DNA from: Candidatus Doudnabacteria bacterium
GTDB taxonomy: Bacteria > Patescibacteriota > Doudnabacteria > UBA920
DNA: 37,857 nucleotides
Assembly: GCA_023245895.1 (NCBI GenBank)
Contig: JAHFJJ010000012.1
Location: forward strand, 1 to 37,857
Reading direction: 5' to 3'
In this document: positions 1,031 to 35,885 of the stretch, one piece after another
How positions within the stretch are numbered: position 1 is the stretch's first letter
Layout of the letters: each line of letters opens with the position of its first letter
Made by a program: the position numbers and the translations under genes
Notes under the pieces: generated by a model
Told to the model about the DNA's origin: nothing
Database searches by the model: none
What the model saw: the letters and a program-made list of their open reading frames with translations, nothing else

Positions 1031-2083
1031 TTACTCCAGTGCAATCCTTCCCGCGGTAATTTCGGCAAGCTCGGTGGTAATTTTGCCTTGCCTTAAGCGG
1101 TTGTAGGTTAAGGTTAAATCGCCCACTAAATCCCCTGCCGCGTCTGTGGCGTTCTTCATCATTATCATACGCGCGGAATGTTCGGACGCATCGGATTCTA
1201 AAATGGTTTGGTAGAGTTGGGATTCTATGATGCGGGGCAAGAGGTGTTCTAGGACTTGGGTTGGGTCAGGTTCAAATAAATAGTCTGTCATTGCGAGTGC
1301 ATCCGAAGCAATCTTTTTATCTGAAGATGAGATTGCTTCGTCGGTTGCACTCCTCGCAATGACAGAGGAAGTGGCAAAAGGCAACAACTGCTTCATTGTC
1401 GGCTTCTGCACCGCTGTTGATACAAAATGGTTATAAATTATTACTATTTTCTTATACTGTCCGCTCAAATAAGAATCTGTAATTAGTTTTGCCAGGGGAA
1501 AAATATCTTCTGTTGTAATAGTTTTATCTAATTTATTAAAATCCGCCATTATATTTTTGCCCATTCTTTGGGCAATGACTTTGGCTTTCTTGCCGTAAAC
1601 GATTAATTCAGCAATCATATCGTAGTGTGCCGATTTATCGGCGTCTTGGCTGCCCATAAATGGGCGCACTACGTCTTGGATTACCTTAATCAAATTACTA
1701 TTCAAACTCCCAACCAATCCCCTATTCGTAGAAAGCACAATTACGCCGACTTTTTTTGCGTTGGGGAATTGGCGGAGCAAGCTAAGCACTTGTGTCATCC
1801 CGGCCGAGTGCATCCGAGAGCCGGGATCCAGGTCTAAGCCATCTTTCTGGATCCCGGATAGATTTTCGGATGCACTCAAATCTTCGGGGATGACACCTGG
1901 GGACGCCGCCGGCATTAAATTCCCCACCAACTCCCAAGCCAAACCAGCGTAAGTCCTGCTGTTTACCACGGCAGTCTGCGCCTTGCGCATTTTGGCAGCC
2001 GAAACCATTTGCATGGCCTTGGTAACCTTGCGCATGCCTTGGATGCTCTTTATTCTGGTTTTAAGTTCTTTAGTGCCTGGCAT
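1031..2083 (-). CDS. atpG: F1Fo ATP synthase subunit gamma with repeat-derived insertions
   Basis: Central rotor stalk of F1. The N-terminal helix (IKTRI-type start, KVTKAMQMVSAAKMRKAQ) and the C-terminal helix (ASEHSARMIMMKNATDAAGDL, LTYNRLRQGKITTELAEITAG) are well conserved. At 350 aa it is about 65 aa longer than usual. The extra length comes from three segments encoded by palindromic repeats found elsewhere in the window: residues around SPGVIPEDLSASENLSG..., VRPFMGSQDADKSAHY and SVIARSATDEAISSSDKK. By comparison with bacillary gamma subunits from memory, all three fall in variable loops, so the protein is probably functional. The start ATG has only weak ribosome-binding sequence. Confidence 0.95.
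   Translation of the reverse strand: MPGTKELKTRIKSIQGMRKVTKAMQMVSAAKMRKAQTAVVNSRTYAGLAWELVGNLMPAASPGVIPEDLSASENLSGIQKDGLDLDPGSRMHSAGMTQVLSLLRQFPNAKKVGVIVLSTNRGLVGSLNSNLIKVIQDVVRPFMGSQDADKSAHYDMIAELIVYGKKAKVIAQRMGKNIMADFNKLDKTITTEDIFPLAKLITDSYLSGQYKKIVIIYNHFVSTAVQKPTMKQLLPFATSSVIARSATDEAISSSDKKIASDALAMTDYLFEPDPTQVLEHLLPRIIESQLYQTILESDASEHSARMIMMKNATDAAGDLVGDLTLTYNRLRQGKITTELAEITAGRIALE
1285..1365. repeat. In-frame palindromic repeat 3 in atpG
   Basis: Arms CTGTCATTGCGAG and CTCGCAATGACAG enclose inner arms GAAGCAATCT and AGATTGCTTC. The unit is 81 nt, exactly 27 codons, and encodes the extra gamma segment SVIARSATDEAISSSDKK plus following residues. The first 28 nt of the repeat proper recur identically at 33187 beside murD, showing it is a dispersed element and not native gamma sequence. 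Confidence 0.85.
1622..1672. repeat. In-frame palindromic repeat 2 in atpG
   Basis: 51 nt, exactly 17 codons, with arms GTAGTGTGCC... and ...GGGCGCACTAC. The same family, with central TGCCCATAAATGGGC-type arms, is at 5855-5906 between atpF and atpE and at 26626-26684 between lepA and murJ. Inside atpG it encodes VRPFMGSQDADKSAHY. Confidence 0.85.
1794..1894. repeat. In-frame palindromic repeat 1 in atpG
   Basis: Imperfect inverted repeat of about 101 nt with outer arms GTCATCCC and GGGGATGAC and inner arms containing GAGTGCATCCGA and CCGGGATCCA. It encodes about 34 residues rich in S, G and D in the loop following the first gamma helix. GTGCATCCGA-type sequence is shared with the other dispersed repeats of the window. 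Confidence 0.8.
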
Positions 2084-2118: not shown

Positions 2119-2565
2119 CTACTCAATGTTTAAATCTAGTTTATCTTTTTTGTCGTCACCGGCATCCATATATTCTTGGGCTTTGGCAAAAATTTTACTT
2201 CTTTCTTCTTCGGTAATTACGCCTTGGCCAACAAGGCCTGATAAAAAAAGCTCCCAAAGTCTTGTTATGCCATTGTCGCCCGACTCTAAGGCGTCAATCG
2301 TCATGCTTACAGCTTCAGTCGGCAGAAGCCTGTCTCGGAGTGTCGCCACCTCGTTTCCTTTGCTGCGCTCTCCTGTCAATCCCCAGCTTCCAAGTTTATT
2401 TATTAAATTTGACCCGAATTCGTTTTTTATTTGTTCCATTTCCCGGGCAGTTTTATTGTCCTGTGAGCCCTTGAACCGTTGCTCCAACACAAACGGCTTT
2501 CTCCAACCTCCTTGGTCAGAAGATTGTTCCAGCATTGCTGTCCCGCCTATTTCGTTTCTATTCAT
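2119..2565 (-). CDS. Hypothetical 148-aa protein between atpA and atpG
   Basis: Not recognised. The protein is soluble and acidic toward the C-terminus (DAGDDKKDKLDLNIE) and has no obvious motif. A good ribosome-binding site (GAAAGGAAAT) precedes the ATG. It lies 35 nt upstream of atpG and downstream of a relic made of atpG and atpA ends, so it seems to be cargo brought in by the same rearrangement. It is unlike the 81-aa gene on the other side of the relic. Confidence 0.75.
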   Translation of the reverse strand: MNRNEIGGTAMLEQSSDQGGWRKPFVLEQRFKGSQDNKTAREMEQIKNEFGSNLINKLGSWGLTGERSKGNEVATLRDRLLPTEAVSMTIDALESGDNGITRLWELFLSGLVGQGVITEEERSKIFAKAQEYMDAGDDKKDKLDLNIE

Positions 2566-2666: not shown

Positions 2667-2786
2667 TTATTTAATTGTCTGCAAAAAAATAATTGTTTCC
2701 TTGTGCATGCCTCCGCCTTCGCTAAAGCTTCGGCGGACAAGTTGGATGCTCTTTATTCTGGTTTTTAGTTCCTTAGTACCTGGCAT
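2667..2786 (-). pseudogene. Relic: atpG 5' fragment fused to atpA 3' fragment, with palindrome
   Basis: On the minus strand 2786-2742 encodes MPGTKELKTRIKSIQ, identical in protein to the start of atpG but with three synonymous base changes. A 30-nt palindromic repeat (2712-2741) follows, then GGCATGC-CAAGG, the next atpG bases with one change. The sequence then passes directly into 2702-2667, which encodes KETIIFLQTIK and stop, matching the atpA C-terminus [12 protein letters not shown] and stop. The order atpG start then atpA end is what a staggered or tandem-duplication junction would leave. It is not expected to be functional. Confidence 0.8.
2712..2741. repeat. Palindromic repeat inside the atpG/atpA relic
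   Basis: TCCGCCTTCGC and GCTTCGGCGGA arms around a short loop. It interrupts the relic atpG fragment by 30 nt, an exact multiple of three. The junction between the atpG and atpA pieces is about 12 nt away. Confidence 0.8.
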
Positions 2787-2790
2787 TGAA

Positions 2791-3036
2791 TTAATCAATT
2801 ATCTTAAGTGTGACTTTGATATATCCGTCTTCGAGTTTAGAACAATTTTCAGCTAAGCCTACAATTTCCTCACCACTTGGAGTTTGTAAGTAAAATTTGG
2901 CACCTCTTTCAACCGGCTGGCTATATCTTGTTATGGTGATTGATGAAGATTCTTCATTGTAGTGGTTCATTTCATCTTCGGAGAGCTGGGTGTCAATGAA
3001 GTGTTTGGGCCTGGGGTGATCAAAATTGCTTTTCAT
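2791..3036 (-). CDS. Hypothetical 81-aa protein after atpA
   Basis: Not recognised. The N-terminal half is polar (MKSNFDHPRPKHFIDTQLSEDEMNHY). The C-terminal half could form a small beta domain (AKFYLQTPSGEEIVGLAENC). It starts 5 nt after the atpA stop, so it is probably read by the same ribosomes, although no clear Shine-Dalgarno is visible. The relic atpG start lies 4 nt after its stop codon. Confidence 0.7.
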   Translation of the reverse strand: MKSNFDHPRPKHFIDTQLSEDEMNHYNEESSSITITRYSQPVERGAKFYLQTPSGEEIVGLAENCSKLEDGYIKVTLKIID

Positions 3037-3041
3037 AAAGT

Positions 3042-4538
3042 TTACTTCACTGTCTGCAAAAAGTTTTTAATTGCTTCTTTCAGCTTGGCTTCGGTATCAT
3101 CGGTGAGTTCCTTAGATGAGCCAATTGCGCTTAAGATATCTTTCCCCTGGACTTCCATAAATTGGTGGAATTTGGTTTCTATTTCCTGCATTTTTTCTAC
3201 CGGGATTTCGTTGAAGTAGCCGTTGTTGACCGCGTACAAAATTGTAACCTGTTTTTCCAAGGAGTTCGGTTGGTATTGCGGCTGTTTTAAGACTTCGGTT
3301 TGACGGCGGCCTAAATCGAGGGTGGTTTTTGTGGCTTGGTCAAGGTCGGAACCGAACTGGGCAAAGGCTTCCAGTTCTCTAAATTGGGCGAGTGATAATT
3401 TTAATTTGCCGGCAACTTTCTTCATGGCTTTTGTTTGCGCGGAAGAACCTACACGGGAAACCGAAATACCTACGTTAAGCGCCGGGCGGATGCCTTTGTA
3501 GAATAAATCGGATTCCAAAAAGATTTGTCCGTCTGTAATGGAAATAACGTTGGTCGGAATGTAAGCGGAAATATCGCCGGCTTGAGTCTCAATAATTGGG
3601 AGCGCGGTAATTGAGCCGCCGCCAAAGTCAGGGTTTAATTTTGCGGCGCGCTCTAATAATCTAGAATGTAAATAAAACACATCACCCGGGTAAGCTTCAC
3701 GTCCCGGAGGGCGGCGAAGTAAAAGAGAAATTTCACGGTATGCAACGGCTTGCTTGGACAAATCATCGTAAACAATTAAAACATCCAAACCTTTGTCCAT
3801 AAAGTATTCACCCATAGCGCAACCGGCGTAAGGCGCAATGTAGGAAAGCGCCGCGGGTTCGGAGGCTGCGGCCGAGACGACTATTGTATATGCCATGGCG
3901 CCGTGCTTTTCCAGGTCAGCCACAATTTTGGCAATTTTGGACTCTTTTTGGCCTATGGCAACGTAAATACAGACCATATCCTGGCCTTTTTGGTTGATGA
4001 TGGTGTCTATGGCGACCGCAGTTTTTCCGGTCTGCCTGTCGCCAATTATAAGCTCACGCTGGCCCCTGCCAATGGGGATAAGCGCGTCTATGGCTTTAAT
4101 TCCGGTCTGTACAGGCTGTTTGACCGATTGCCGCGTAATAACACCGGGAGCGATTTTTTCCACCGGATAAAAGGCGCTTTCCTTAATGGCACCTTTGCCG
4201 TCTTTGGGTTCGCCAAGCGCGCTTACTGTCCTGCCAATTAATCCTTCTCCAACCGGCACGGACAAAATTTTTCCTGTCGCTCTTACAGTGTCCCCTACTT
4301 TAATAGTATGGAAGTCGCCAAGGATAATACTACCGATCATATTCTCTTCCAAGTTTAGAGCTACACCCATTATTCCCTTGCCGAAGTCCAACATTTCCAT
4401 GCTGGCGGCTTGAGTTAATCCGCTAACTCTTGCTACACCATCCCCCACTTCCAAAACCGTGCCGACTTTTTCAACTTTAACGTCGGGCTGGAATTGTAAG
4501 ATTTTTTCTTTTAATTGGGATACTAAGTTTTGTGACAT
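3042..4538 (-). CDS. atpA: F1Fo ATP synthase subunit alpha
   Basis: Non-catalytic nucleotide-binding subunit of F1. At 498 aa it has family length. The beta-barrel domain is followed by the P-loop [11 protein letters not shown] at about residues 166-176, then the alpha signature region [17 protein letters not shown] and the helical C-terminus ending [12 protein letters not shown]. It is preceded by a weak ribosome-binding site (ACGAAACAAT) and sits 9 nt after an 83-aa membrane protein gene. A divergent copy of its last 11 codons survives 340 bp downstream in the relic at 2667-2786. Confidence 0.97.
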
Positions 4539-5280: not shown

Positions 5281-5823
5281 TTACTTAATCGAAGAGAGCA
5301 TTTCCTTAACTAATTCCTGGTCCTTATGGCTGTCCATTTTCTGCTTTAAGATTTTTTCCGTGGCCATTGTGACCACATCAGCAATCTCCGACTTTGCTTC
5401 CTGCATCATTTTGGATTTTTCGGTTTCCATTTGGCTCCTGGCCTGGGCAATAAGTTTTTCCTGGTCGTTTTTGGTAATTATTAAAGTTTGGTCCTTAACT
5501 TTATTCGCGTCGGTCTGTGCCTGCGCAACTATAGCCGCGGCAGATTGTCTGGCGCTGGACATTTGCTGGTTTTTCCAGGCTTCAAATTCTGCTTTTTCCC
5601 GGGTTATGCTGTTGGCATCGCTCATTGCCTTTTCTATTTTTTCTGTGCGTTCAGTAAGTTTTTTTGCAACCGGCGTGAAAACAAATTTCCACAAAATCAA
5701 AAGCACAATTGAGAATGTTATCAATTGGCCAATAAAATATTGGAGGTTAAGGCCTAAAGTTCCGGCGACTCCACCGGATGCCGCTTCTTCAGCGGCGTGG
5801 GCAATGTGGATGAATTCAATCAT
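5281..5823 (-). CDS. atpF: F1Fo ATP synthase subunit b
   Basis: Peripheral stalk. At 180 aa it has family length. A short N-terminal extension (HIAHAAEEAASGGVAG) is followed by one membrane helix (FIGQLITFSIVLLILWKFVF), then a long charged helical dimerisation region (KKLTERTEKIEKAMSDANS onward). The position between atpE and atpH is canonical. No strong ribosome-binding site is visible before the ATG at 5823. Confidence 0.95.
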   Translation of the reverse strand: MIEFIHIAHAAEEAASGGVAGTLGLNLQYFIGQLITFSIVLLILWKFVFTPVAKKLTERTEKIEKAMSDANSITREKAEFEAWKNQQMSSARQSAAAIVAQAQTDANKVKDQTLIITKNDQEKLIAQARSQMETEKSKMMQEAKSEIADVVTMATEKILKQKMDSHKDQELVKEMLSSIK

Positions 5824-20157: not shown

Positions 20158-20249
20158 TATGGTACTATTCGCGCGAATAGTACCATAGGGGCCGCCGGCG
20201 CCTCAAAATGTACAACTTTTCCCATATATTTTTAGTTTAATTGTTAGAT
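20158..20249 (-). repeat. Repeat element B (leader, VOC codons, palindrome)
   Basis: Minus-strand order: conserved leader beginning ATCTAACAATTAAACTAAAA (20249 down), then the first 11 codons of the VOC gene from ATG at 20225 (one base change), a short variable spacer, then a perfect 30-bp palindrome (20158-20187) with core ACTATTCGCGCGAATAGT and outer bases TATGGT/ACCATA. It starts 5 nt after the toxin stop codon. The ATG opens a 34-codon frame that runs through the palindrome and terminator. Confidence 0.85.
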
Positions 20250-20253
20250 AACT

Positions 20254-20508
20254 TTATTTATAAACTCCTTGCCTATGGTCTACATCTACAACAACAATCA
20301 TCAACTGATTTTTATAAATTTCATAAATTATTCTATAAGGCCAAACCCGCAAAGAATACTGGCCTGAGTATTTGCCAGAAAGCTTTTTCCCTAAAAATGG
20401 GTCTTCAGCCAATGCCAAAAAAGCAATTTTTATTTTTTGCTGAAATTCCTTAGGAATTTTTTCGAAGTGCTTTTCGGCTTTTGGTTTTATTATTAGGGTG
20501 TAGCGCAT
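20254..20508 (-). CDS. RelE/ParE-family toxin
   Basis: 84 aa with the family fold: MRYTLIIKPKAEKHFEKIP, then DPFLGKKLSGKYSGQYSLRVWPYRIIYEI and the C-terminal VDVDHRQGVY. RelE-type toxins cleave ribosome-bound mRNA; the basic residues K, R and the C-terminal HR...Y fit that. It overlaps the 3' end of the antitoxin gene by 59 nt, unusually long for a coupled pair. Repeat element B follows its stop. Confidence 0.9.
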   Translation of the reverse strand: MRYTLIIKPKAEKHFEKIPKEFQQKIKIAFLALAEDPFLGKKLSGKYSGQYSLRVWPYRIIYEIYKNQLMIVVVDVDHRQGVYK

Positions 20509-20788
20509 TGTCTTTTGCTAACAGTTGCTCCAAAGTCGTATATTTTTTATAAGCTCCGCTTTTTATGTCCCTGCGCACTTGGGCAATATCTTTGTCCAAA
20601 TTGGGGAAAATCCTCATTACTTCTATTGTTTCAAGCAAGCTTTCGTACTTCTCCGCCGAAAGCATAACCGCTTTGGGCATGCCTTTGTCGGTAAAAGTAT
20701 AAACTCTTCCGGGCTTTTGTACCTGGTCAGCAAGGTCAAAAATTCTGGCCCTGGCCTGAGAAATTGATAAGGTTGTTTTTGTGTCCAT
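20450..20788 (-). CDS. Phd/YefM-family antitoxin
   Basis: 112 aa. The N-terminal DNA-binding and dimerisation part (TTLSISQARARIFDLADQVQ, YTFTDKGMPKAVMLSAEKYESLLETIE) is typical. The C-terminal tail, which should wrap the toxin, is Lys-rich and extends into the toxin gene. A good AGAAAGGAAA site and a strong promoter with an overlapping inverted repeat lie upstream, as expected for autoregulation. Confidence 0.9.
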   Translation of the reverse strand: MDTKTTLSISQARARIFDLADQVQKPGRVYTFTDKGMPKAVMLSAEKYESLLETIEVMRIFPNLDKDIAQVRRDIKSGAYKKYTTLEQLLAKDNALHPNNKTKSRKALRKNS

Positions 20789-20805
20789 AAAGCGATTTCC
20801 TTTCT

Positions 20806-20840
20806 ATGTACATAATAGCGTACATCAAAAATGCTGTCAA
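20806..20840 (-). promoter_or_regulatory. Promoter and operator of the antitoxin-toxin operon
   Basis: Minus-strand -35 TTGACA (20835-20840) and -10 TATTAT (20812-20817) with 17-bp spacing. The inverted repeat ATGTAC-N8-GTACAT (20806-20825) lies exactly over the -10 box, which suits repression by the antitoxin complex. Confidence 0.8.
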
Positions 20841-20878
20841 ATTTATCATTCTGAATTTCGAGGTTACCCGTTTACTAC

Positions 20879-20970
20879 CTAGGTACTATTCGCGCGAATA
20901 GTACCTAGAAGCTCGCCGGCACCTCAAAATGTACAACTTTTCCGATATATTTTTAGTTTAATTGTTAGAT
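20879..20970 (-). repeat. Repeat element C (leader, VOC codons, palindrome)
   Basis: Same order as element B. The leader (ending at 20970) is identical, the VOC codons run 20946-20914 with the ATG changed to ATC, and the perfect 30-bp palindrome is at 20879-20908 with outer bases CTAGGT/ACCTAG. The start-codon change and an early TAG show that protein coding is not what is conserved. It separates the retropepsin gene from the antitoxin promoter. Confidence 0.85.
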
Positions 20971-21024
20971 TTTGATAAGTTTGTGAAATGTGATAATATT
21001 TTATTATCACGAGCAGAAAAGTTC

Positions 21025-21058
21025 GCCCTATAAGGTTTTTGTCCTTATAGGGCCTTTT
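21025..21058. terminator. Hairpin overlapping the retropepsin stop codon
   Basis: GCCCTATAAGG and CCTTATAGGGC arms around TTTTTGT, followed on the plus strand by CTTTTTT. The minus-strand stop codon of the retropepsin gene lies within it. On the minus strand the T-run is absent, so it may only protect the 3' end. Confidence 0.6.
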
Positions 21059-21476
21059 TTATTTCAATCTCTTCCTTTTGATAATCAAAGTTTACTTTAA
21101 AAAGTTCAAAAAAACCTTTTTGTCCCAAAATTCCGTAGCCTTTGTTGGAAAGATCGTAAGAAAAAATGGCTGGTATGGCAAATCTATGTCCACCAAGACT
21201 CAAGTTGATTGTATGCAAATAAGCTTTTCCGGCCGTAGCGTTTTGGACTCCGCCAAATTGCATAGGAGTTCCGGCTTTAACATCAAGCCCTAGTAGTTCG
21301 CCTATGCTGCCGTCAAAAACACAAGTGTCAGCGCCGGAATCCAGCAGGACTTCGTAGTTGATTTTTTCTCCGCCTCCCAGTAATTGCACCGGAATAATCG
21401 GCCGTAGGATAGAAAATCCGAAAAGAGGTATCTTTTCGGATAAGGAAACTTTTTTGTACTTAAATTTTAACGTCAT
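21045..21476 (-). CDS. Retropepsin-like aspartic protease
   Basis: 143-aa single-domain protease of retroviral-pepsin type, which would work as a dimer. The catalytic motif is VLLDSGADTCVFD, followed by the flap-like region and the second hydrophobic motif GYGILGQKGFF. The ATG overlaps the upstream DUF5678 gene stop as ATGA, so the two are coupled; this pair is known from other bacteria and archaea as far as I recall. The role and substrate are unknown. Confidence 0.85.
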   Translation of the reverse strand: MTLKFKYKKVSLSEKIPLFGFSILRPIIPVQLLGGGEKINYEVLLDSGADTCVFDGSIGELLGLDVKAGTPMQFGGVQNATAGKAYLHTINLSLGGHRFAIPAIFSYDLSNKGYGILGQKGFFELFKVNFDYQKEEIEIKKAL

Positions 21477-21673
21477 AACCAACCACTGCCTACGTAAGTT
21501 ACAATTTCCGTAGGCACACGGTGTAAAATGGGTTCTTTAAAACCTTTTTTTTTGGCCATTTCCCAAGCTTGTTTAGCCGTTTTGCCACTACTAATAACCG
21601 TGACTTCGTCGCTTTCTAAAGCCACCCACAAACCTTTGTATTTCTTGTAAATCTTGCTCCAATTAATAGCCAT
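21473..21673 (-). CDS. DUF5678-like small protein
   Basis: 66 aa: NWSKIYKKYKGLWVALESDEVTVISSGKTAKQAWEMAKKKGFKEPILHRVP. The W-VAL..D..V...G.T..EA...A pattern is that of DUF5678. It is coupled to the retropepsin gene and may be its partner or substrate. Repeat element D lies just upstream. Confidence 0.75.
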   Translation of the reverse strand: MAINWSKIYKKYKGLWVALESDEVTVISSGKTAKQAWEMAKKKGFKEPILHRVPTEIVTYVGSGWL

Positions 21674-21719
21674 AGCTAAATTGTATAATATAAATATATT
21701 TATGCCAAGTTAATCACAC

Positions 21720-21926
21720 CTAAGGAACTATTCGCGCGAATAGTTCCTTAGGATCCGCCGGCACTTCAAAATGTACAACTTTTCCCATACCCAGTAGAAT
21801 TTCTTTGAGATTGTTTGCCTACTCGAGGCATTACAATCAACTCTGACTACTTTAAAATCCAGCAAACCAGCCTATAGTTCTCAAAGAAGCTCTACTGGGC
21901 ATATATTTTTAGTTTAATTGTTAGAT
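21720..21926 (-). repeat. Repeat element D, interrupted by a MITE-like insertion
   Basis: Leader (21926-21904), VOC codons (ATG at 21788, continuing to GCGGAT at 21753, one synonymous change) and a perfect 32-bp palindrome (21720-21751) with outer bases CTAAGGA/TCCTTAG. A 110-bp insertion splits the leader from the ATG. It is the longest of the four copies by palindrome length and the only one with an insertion. Confidence 0.85.
21790..21899. mobile_element. MITE-like insertion with terminal inverted repeats
   Basis: 110 bp with 21-bp terminal inverted repeats (CCCAGTAGAATTTCTTTGAG at the left; 19 of 21 match at the right) flanked by a CATA duplication (21786-21789 and 21900-21903). Elements B and C show the uninterrupted sequence with a single copy. 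An internal hairpin (GATTGT ... ACAATC with TGCCT/AGGCA) is present. It encodes no protein, so it needs a transposase from elsewhere. Family not recognised. Confidence 0.85.
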
Positions 21927-33708: not shown

Positions 33709-33767
33709 TTTTCCTATACCATGGCCTCAGCGCCACCATTTTGGATTAAAAGCAAAACCGCTTCTAC
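33696..33767 (-). pseudogene. Relic of a second D-aminoacylase gene
   Basis: Reads [17 protein letters not shown], stop, EKLKAG, matching residues 363-386 of the intact deacylase ([17 protein letters not shown], then FEKNLDAG). There are many silent differences, one stop and one lost codon. It begins at the pilin stop codon. It is too diverged to be a recent duplication. Confidence 0.75.
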
Positions 33768-34322: not shown

Positions 34323-35885
34323 TTAGCCTTTCCTCAAAGCGTATCCCGGCAACTGGCCGGTAGTTTTTCCTTCCGCTACCGCGGCTTTGCCGTTTACGAA
34401 AACATATTCTATGCCTTCGCTGAACTGGTAAGGGTTTTCATAAGTCGCCCTGTCCCTAATTTTTCTTTTGTCAAAAATTACCAGGTCGGCAAAGTTGCCG
34501 ATTTTTATTTCTCCGCGCTTTTTAAGGCCGAGTTTTTTAGCCGGCCCGCTCGATAGTTTTTTAATCGCGGCGGGCAAGCCCAAAGATGCCCGGGCTTGGA
34601 CCCAATTTAAAAATTTAGGCGCTGTGCCAAAGGAACGCGGGTGGACCAGGCCGTTGCCGGTTGCCCCAAAACCGGCGCCATCCGTGGCAATAAAAGACAG
34701 GGGGTGGAGCAATAATTGCTCCACTTGCCCGGCATCCAGATTTTTTTCAAAAACCATAACCTCGGCTCCCCCGTTTTGGATTAAGTGCAAAACAGCCTGC
34801 TCAGAGGAGCACTCCAAGTTTTTGGCAATTTGGCCGATGGTCTTGCCGGTAAAATTCAATTTATTAGCGGTAGAAGCCACTTTTATATCGGCAAACTTTA
34901 TGCCAAGGTTATTAAGGTAAAGCAGTATCTTATTTTTTTGCGTTGGGTCCGAGAAGTGTTTGAGCATTACTGCCCTGCCGCCCTCAATTGCCCATTTGGG
35001 CAGGTAGCTATAAAGCGGCTGCCACATTATTTCGTAAGGATATAAATCAAAATGGACGTTTACTCCCTGATGGTAAGCCGTGTCCAGCAGGCTGGTTATT
35101 TCCGGCAGCTTGTGCCAGTTATTTTCATTCCTGACTTTAAGGTGAGATATTTTTAAATTGCTTTCCGTTGCCCTGGCAATTTCCAGGGCTTCATCCACTG
35201 CTTCCACGACCTGTTCGCTCTCGCTCCTTAAATGGATTACAAAAAGCCCGTTTTTAGCTTTAACCACTTTTGCCATTTCAAACAATTCCAATTCCGAAAT
35301 AATTATTTCGTGGGAATAGGAAAGCCCGTTGGACAGGCCAAACGCGCCGGCGTCCATACTTTCTTCCAAAACTTTTTTTATAGAATCAGCTTCACCTTTC
35401 TCCAAACTCCGGATCTGGTCGCCCACAATAGCACGGCGCAAAGTGGCGTAGCCGACTAAACTGCCAACGTTGCAGGCAAATCGCTTTTTGGAAAGTTCCT
35501 CCATAAATTCGGAAAAGGTTTGCCAGTTAAGGTTAATGCCTTCCAGATTATGCCATTTTTGCATGGCTAAAATCGCGTCCGGGCTCAGCAGGGGCGCCAG
35601 GCTGGCCCCGCAGTTGCCGACTAAAATAGTGGTGTAGCCTTGGGTAATTAAGCTGTCCAAAGACGGGTTGTCAAAAATTTGCCAGTAGCTGTCGCTGTGG
35701 TTTTGCAAGTCTACAAAACCGGGGGCTAAAACTTTATCTGCCGCGTCCACAACCGACCGGGCCTGTGAATCTATGCGCGGCGCGATATTTACAATTTGGT
35801 CGCCCTGGACGGCCACGTCCAAAATTTCCCCGGGTTTTCCGGTGCCGTCAATGACTGTGGCGTTTTTGATTAAGAGAGAGTACAT
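34323..35885 (-). CDS. N-acyl-D-amino-acid deacylase family amidohydrolase
   Basis: 520 aa. The composite barrel start and [20 protein letters not shown] (Cys92), VIHLRSE (His218), ISHLKV (His248) and IATDGAG (Asp402) match the D-aminoacylase family. The first metal motif, normally HxH, reads QNH, so one ligand of the weaker metal site is missing. It may release D-amino acids from N-acyl forms or act on wall-derived peptides. It lies between mraY and a pilin gene. Confidence 0.88.

Follow-up and report, generated by a model that had tools for sequence, protein, structure and literature searches.

How does the beginning of atpG come to lie in front of the end of atpA, between two different small genes, in an operon in which both genes are also present intact? 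The stretch of DNA analysed here (the window, 37,857 nucleotides, free of Ns) comes from a metagenome-assembled genome (MAG) of Doudnabacteria (Patescibacteria), designated G000. It opens within atpD, and on the minus strand the order is atpB-E-F-H, an 83-aa membrane ORF, atpA, an 81-aa ORF, the composite fragment (the relic), a 148-aa ORF, atpG, a 114-aa ORF, and atpD (Table 1). The initial annotation, made from the sequence alone, had proposed that a chromosome carrying atpA-81aa-atpG recombined out of register with another carrying atpA-148aa-atpG, by which two cargo genes were stacked at the same operon position.

The composite relic between atpA and atpG

The relic spans positions 2667-2786 of the minus strand, exactly as annotated initially. 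Its first 45 nt (2786 to 2742, ATGCCAGGTACTAAGGAACTAAAAACCAGAATAAAGAGCATCCAA) specify the same 15 residues as the first 45 nt of the resident atpG (2083 to 2039), and the 3 differing sites are all silent; this match has a z value of 26 and was reached by none of 200 dinucleotide shuffles of the interval. The palindrome that had been described as separating the atpG and atpA pieces is present, but does not form the junction, since it is placed within the atpG piece (2741-2712); on its 3' side atpG resumes (GGCATGCACAAGG vs GGCATGCGCAAGG, 1 mismatch in 13, P ~6e-7 for a fixed place). Because it is a dispersed repeat of the family genomes, we read the palindrome as a separate insertion into the stump after atpG codon 15 and not as the join itself. 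The atpA 3' fragment (KETIIFLQTIK-stop) is weaker when taken alone (P = 0.0016) and is corroborated by a matching atpG-to-atpA fusion in the related genome G004; compared with the corresponding 12 residues at the end of the resident atpA, one codon has been lost in the relic. The reversed order, with the atpG start ahead of the atpA end between the 81-aa and the 148-aa ORF, was likewise found to be correct. In 629 kb (604 genes) of G000, the relic is the only accepted non-repeat copy of a gene end; a looser scan yielded three extra hits, each of which lies within another ORF.

Table 1 Features of the atpA-atpG interval of the window (G000) and gene-end stumps found beside other genes of related genomes
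Feature	Position	Strand	Evidence or content
Intact atpA (498 aa), left-hand neighbour from which the relic tail derives	3042..4538	-	83-91% identity to atpA of genus members
Cargo 1, 81-aa orphan ORF	2791..3036	-	No relative or domain/fold match
Relic part 1, atpG codons 1-15	2742..2786	-	3 silent differences vs resident; z = 26
30-bp quasi-palindrome in the atpG piece, in frame, CTTGTCCGCCGAAGCTTTAGCGAAGGCGGA	2712..2741	-	Dispersed repeat
Relic part 2, atpG codons 16-19, GMHK for GMRK (R to H)	2700..2711	-	Alignment with resident atpG
Relic part 3, decayed atpA 3' end, last ~12 codons, overlapping the last atpG codon	2667..2702	-	P = 0.0016; G004 fusion
Cargo 2, 148-aa orphan ORF	2119..2565	-	No relative or domain match
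Intact atpG (350 aa), resident counterpart of the relic in its first 19 codons	1031..2083	-	Enlarged by in-frame palindromic elements
G004 gatA stump			PemK/MazF-type gene between
G004 glpX stump			ParE-type pair between; ~50 bp of upstream DNA likewise duplicated
G004 stump of 425-aa membrane protein gene			DUF433/DUF5615 pair
G004 alcohol dehydrogenase-like gene			Two stumps in series and NYN-like fragment
G004 ftsA stump			AbiEii-type gene
G004 stump of RecX-like gene			Palindrome only
G002 RNase J stump			Palindromes between
G002 stump of 852-aa gene			Palindromes between

No relative of the 81-aa or the 148-aa gene was found among the 48 other genomes of the order or in viral contigs, and neither gene gave a match in Pfam, NCBIfam or PADLOC or contains a recognised toxin or antitoxin domain. 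Single-sequence models predict a small, beta-rich protein for the former (pLDDT 73), for which a PDB fold search gave no significant match, and a helical protein of low confidence for the latter (pLDDT 48). The two single-cargo alleles that had been named as parents were sought in 49 genomes of the order, and none was found. Either cargo gene may be the newcomer.

Stumps at the atp loci of relatives and beside other genes

atpA was found in all 22 family genomes, and in these the gaps between atp genes range from a few nucleotides to ~1 kb and contain small ORFs that vary by species. A few ORF types recur, namely an 85-aa ORF at atpH-atpA (G002, G007), an acidic ORF of ~110 aa at atpG-atpD (G002, G006, G007) and a P-loop ORF at atpA-atpG (G015, G016). 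Genes for GxxExxY-type nucleases are located at three atp junctions (A-G and D-C in G003, F-H in G004, D-C in G006), which is more than their genome frequency predicts (P ~1e-6, based on an approximate gene count). These GxxExxY / PD-(D/E)XK_3 genes lie in L035 (G006), L038 (G003) and L041 (G004), and the copy at the A-G junction of G003 has a 74% identical homologue outside the atp locus in G004 (C71).

Stumps of atpG are present in 4 of the 21 family genomes in which the atpA-atpG interval was read (G000, G002, G004 and G013). In G004, which is the closest relative with 91% aa identity in atpA, a 98-113-aa ORF is followed by ATGCCGGGTACGAAAGAGATTAAAACC...GGCGGACAGGTGCGCAAATTGAAAGAAGCTATTAAATTT...TAA and then by a 135-aa ORF; this relic (L041 oriented 5712-5812) again consists of an atpG start fused to an atpA end, together with a palindrome remnant, and its atpA tail matches atpA of G000 with P = 0.0004 and that of G004 itself with P = 0.017. 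Because the closest relative thus carries the same composite relic between two cargo genes, which are unrelated to those of G000, we regard the G000 case as one instance of a recurrent process. In both relics the fusion falls at the same point, with atpG codon 19 joined to the final 12-14 codons of atpA, an agreement suggestive of shared descent; at the join, the atpG and atpA sequences have ~3 nt (AAG/AAA, read by eye) in common. The G000 stump is, however, only 7% diverged from the resident atpG, whereas the fourfold sites of G000 and G004 differ at ~50%, so that shared ancestry and independent recurrence each need an extra step; either the site would have been reused or the stump refreshed by re-import. 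Plain inheritance of the G000 arrangement as an explanation for the wide atpA-atpG interval of G004 was not adopted, as the cargo differs and the stump ages conflict. In G002, the atpG stump contains a different palindrome, and in G013 two stumps in series, each followed by a palindrome, precede the real atpG; in neither genome does a cargo gene lie between stump and atpG. At a further atp junction of G004 the order is atpH, a gene with a NYN domain, an 85-nt copy of the atpH 3' end (95%), a membrane ORF and atpA.

A scan for stumps covered ~1.2 Mb from five family genomes, in which the 5' 150 nt of each gene were compared with the 1.5 kb upstream and the 3' 90 nt with the 1.5 kb downstream after removal of repeats. 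The resulting counts are approximate, with genes called simply as the longest ORFs, the atpH case added by hand, and hits inside other ORFs and spurious repeat ORFs put aside on inspection. The stumps found align from the start codon or to the stop codon, and the cargo beside them has recognisable toxin domains of type II / IV toxin-antitoxin systems at gatA (PemK/MazF), glpX (ParE), the 425-aa gene (DUF5615 with a DUF433 partner) and ftsA (AbiEii). By hand count, the rates are clearly uneven among genomes, with 7/307 genes in G004, 2/164 in G002, 1/259 in G013, 1/604 in G000 and 0/85 in G003, compared to 1/944 in a control set composed of atp loci of other bacteria and of other families of the order; on these approximate counts the family differs from the control with P = 0.02 and G004 with P = 3e-4. 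The notion of the atp operon as a special hotspot was abandoned, since this baseline scan gave stumps at other genes. Two stacked cargo genes at one position, as had been proposed for the atp operon, hold as a geometry, but the scope was wider than atp and included gatA, glpX, ftsA, the alcohol dehydrogenase-like gene, RNase J and others. Within the window, a fragment just past a pilin-like gene (33709-33763) resembles residues 359-388 of an amidohydrolase-like gene (34323-35885; tblastn 1e-5, 60% identity) and is possibly another, older stump.

Origin of the two copies and rival explanations

The differences between stumps and resident genes bear on whether the copies arose in place or came from different chromosomes. 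In 14 codon-aligned comparisons, 107 nucleotide differences cause 26 residue changes, while neutral decay predicts 70.6 (lowest of 5000 simulations, 57) and even a generous null in which half of the changes are silent predicts 42.5 (minimum 32), since in a spare copy made in place most later changes would alter the residue. Coding constraint must therefore have acted on both copies during their divergence, which took place mostly in working genes of separate lineages and preceded the join. Certain stumps are nearer to genes of other species than to their own resident: over 36 nt, the atpG stump of G002 differs from atpG of four other species at 4-5 positions and from its own atpG at 9, and the ftsA stump of G004 is 79% identical to the ftsA end of G000, compared to 72% for the resident end of G004. 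ftsA is followed by a PIN-domain pair in G000 (L196:12914-13500) and by an AbiEii-type gene in G004 (L270:9380-10254).

For the 425-aa gene an empty site is available. In G004, the resident gene end and the DUF433/DUF5615 pair lie upstream of the stump, and the stump plus ~700 bp of downstream DNA is collinear with the intact gene end and downstream region of G000 (66%, 780 columns, E = 7.5e-49), where the gene end directly abuts this DNA. The stump of G004 is therefore the native end, and the end on the working gene came with or beside the cargo. An origin between chromosomes, as the initial annotation had it, is borne out by the overwhelmingly protein-conserving differences between relic and resident and by the fact that the sequence upstream of the relic is unrelated to that preceding the real atpG. 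Its recombination out of register survives to the extent that an atpA-X-atpG arrangement was joined to an atpA-Y-atpG arrangement with copies from different alleles, while the parents with the 81-aa and 148-aa genes were not seen. What had been observed is confirmed and its interpretation is partly supported, with the geometry right, the parents unproven and the scope too narrow.

All compared genomes were treated as MAGs, and part of the signal could be imitated by strain chimeras. If the assembly had joined, end to end, contigs from two strains that differ in cargo, the overlapping gene ends would be doubled, and silent-biased differences and the same order of parts would result as well; at gatA of G004, 10 Ns indeed lie between cargo and stump. 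This explanation is quite improbable, as Ns are absent from the atp, glpX, 425-aa, alcohol dehydrogenase, RNase J and 852-aa loci and the gatA stump itself is joined on its inner side to non-gatA DNA without Ns. Moreover, internal palindromes, frameshifts and stops, together with the loss of a codon and the replacement of a conserved arginine, show that the stumps are not functional alleles of a co-resident strain. Two separate MAGs contain the same composite relic, with cargo that differs between them, and two serial stumps are present in G013, an assembly of 8 contigs.

Tandem duplication in place, by slippage or unequal crossing-over between sister chromatids, of the segment from atpA end through cargo to atpG start, followed by decay of the spare copy, would fit the geometry, and a clear array formed in place exists in G013, with three near-identical 3'-end units (L224:13310-13360, minus strand). 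Each unit of this array (L224:13068-13360, minus strand) consists of the 3' end of a 181-aa gene rich in lysine together with ~95 bp, and the array is unlike the stumps. Against duplication in place, the cargo on one side is unrelated to that on the other, also at atpH of G004 with its ~95% identical copies; in addition, the divergence has a silent bias far above that of neutral decay, and some stumps are nearer to genes of other species than to their own resident. It is strongly disfavoured as a general explanation, for which we see very little probability, and refuted at loci where unrelated cargo is flanked by allelic copies.

Integrative elements are known that attach at the ends of tRNA genes or of some protein genes and bring a substitute end with them; a site-specific mobile element of this type would likewise restore one gene end and displace the other, and toxin-antitoxin cargo is common on such elements. 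However, in the intervals (~0.05-1.1 kb, each with a small gene or two) neither an integrase nor a transposase was recognised, and the break point is different at every gene (at its start or its end, between codons 8 and 19 or 41-87 nt before the stop) across many target genes. A search of the cargo intervals gave neither an integrase gene nor the fixed attachment core expected of an integrative element at a gene end. Duplication of a transposon target site is not in agreement with the copies either, which differ by up to about a third with a silent bias, whereas target-site repeats would diverge neutrally because they are created at insertion; no transposase was recognised in the cargo intervals. 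We consider a site-specific mobile element very improbable. A role of the relic as a functional leader that sets atpG translation, be it as an upstream ORF or as an RNA element, is hardly credible. The relic does contain the atpG start codon and first residues, but stumps occur in just 4 of the 21 family genomes read, the frame closes after 12 codons in G004 and is different in each case, and the G000 copy lies ~650 nt ahead of the atpG start codon, beyond an entire gene.

Probable import anchored in conserved genes

We consider it likely that the relic is a stump left behind when DNA anchored in a conserved gene arrived from a related strain with cargo and a new gene end. DNA of a related strain, carrying a small cargo gene and the adjoining end of a conserved gene, would enter the cell and recombine by homology inside the conserved gene, while its other end would be joined without extended homology near the recipient's own gene end. 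The essential gene would remain whole, with an end that is partly the newcomer's and with the cargo adjoining, and the old gene end would stay as a stump of ~20-90 nt, later decaying and gathering palindromic repeats. In G000, the first 19 codons of one atpG allele would thereby have come to abut the final ~12 codons of an atpA allele, with two cargo genes stacked between atpA and atpG. A single crossover with a trimmed and re-circularised fragment would be an alternative route to the same product, and the exact recombination chemistry (one-sided homology or such a crossover) is inferred. A homology anchor is consistent with the intact gene on one side, the ends of which resemble those of other lineages. 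Uptake probably occurs by natural transformation: comEC is present in 21 of the 22 family genomes, dprA scored above the cut-off in 20 of 22 (not in the fragmented assembly of G004), and comEC-dependent transformation works in a cultured Patescibacterium of the Saccharibacteria (PMC10633639). Against the import reading speak the lack of a single-cargo donor allele, the conflicting stump ages in G000 and G004, a duplication instead of the classical deletion, the absence of an above-cut-off dprA in G004 and the chance of strain chimeras among the MAGs.

Homology-facilitated illegitimate recombination (HFIR) during natural transformation in S. pneumoniae, A. baylyi and P. stutzeri (reviewed in PMC3240628) similarly has one homologous and one illegitimate end and brings in foreign genes in inserts of ~1 kb without an integrase. 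Its classical product, however, includes a deletion of recipient DNA of about the size of the insert, whereas at the 425-aa gene, the one locus with a known empty site, the native downstream DNA was kept and the gene end duplicated, and we therefore say that the process works like HFIR, not that it is HFIR. HFIR as such depends on RecA and often leaves 3-10 bp of microhomology at its illegitimate join. The duplication class would survive because a join that deletes downstream DNA would be lethal in tightly packed operons. An experiment in E. coli gave partial gene duplication in 56 of 60 clones through single crossover with an incoming fragment that had been trimmed and re-circularised (PMC3240628); the resulting order of gene, insert and partial gene end is also seen at the 425-aa gene, gatA, ftsA and atpH. 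Those duplications measured 109-950 bp and are longer than the stumps described here, which would be trimmed or older, and a crossover would have needed to take place within a short homologous segment. In the type VI secretion clusters of Vibrio cholerae, arrays of orphan immunity genes have been explained by homology-anchored illegitimate recombination (PMC5361080). There too, a conserved gene serves as anchor, the new module is placed beside it, the older end or module is displaced yet kept, and repetition builds arrays; these arrays mainly keep whole immunity genes and variable effector ends, whereas here 20-90 nt ends of housekeeping genes are found at many unrelated loci of an uncultured lineage with reduced genomes.

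Gene gain by the host-dependent Patescibacteria with their reduced genomes is poorly known. Stumps offer a simple directional signature of import from related lineages, which indicates the gene end that served as anchor and the order of cargo arrival, and no reference is required to count them in any given genome. In addition, they hint at a way for toxin-antitoxin genes to come to lie within operons of essential genes, and a gene-end fragment in a genome of this type should not be taken automatically for an assembly error or for the pseudogene of a duplicated gene. As an extension that we hold to be unlikely, small selfish modules (toxin-antitoxin pairs, NYN, PIN and PD-(D/E)XK nucleases) would spread without an integrase by using the end of an essential gene as a homing arm that is rebuilt at each transfer, with addiction fixing the modules and each round leaving a stump; stumps would then be a readable record of successive imports.

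Palindromes occur in most atpG stumps. The 30-bp element of the relic is present in 6 copies in G000 (at most 2 mismatches) and in 12 of the 22 family genomes. Short dispersed palindromes form a class that includes the Rickettsia palindromic elements, with which the elements described here share a likeness of kind, namely palindromes in coding DNA, some of them in frame; in contrast, the palindromes here are secondary, sitting in stumps and in the resident atpG. Two sets of candidates were discarded on account of such repeats: a match of the atpA-atpG gap of G001 to atpG residues 59-103 looked like an atpG relic and proved to be a shared palindromic element, and direct repeats at several other atp loci are intergenic palindromic repeats, not gene ends. 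Three differing palindromic elements are apparently in frame inside atpG of the window (1797-1906, 1284-1366 and 1621-1673) and account for most of its 350-aa length, and in-frame inserts are also found in atpG and atpA of G004, including atpA hairpins at L041 oriented 3925-3985. Finally, several dispersed repeat units (GGTACTATTCGCGCGAATAGTACC palindromes with a common flank) are located at 20158-21926 of the window around a Phd/ParE-type pair (20254-20788).
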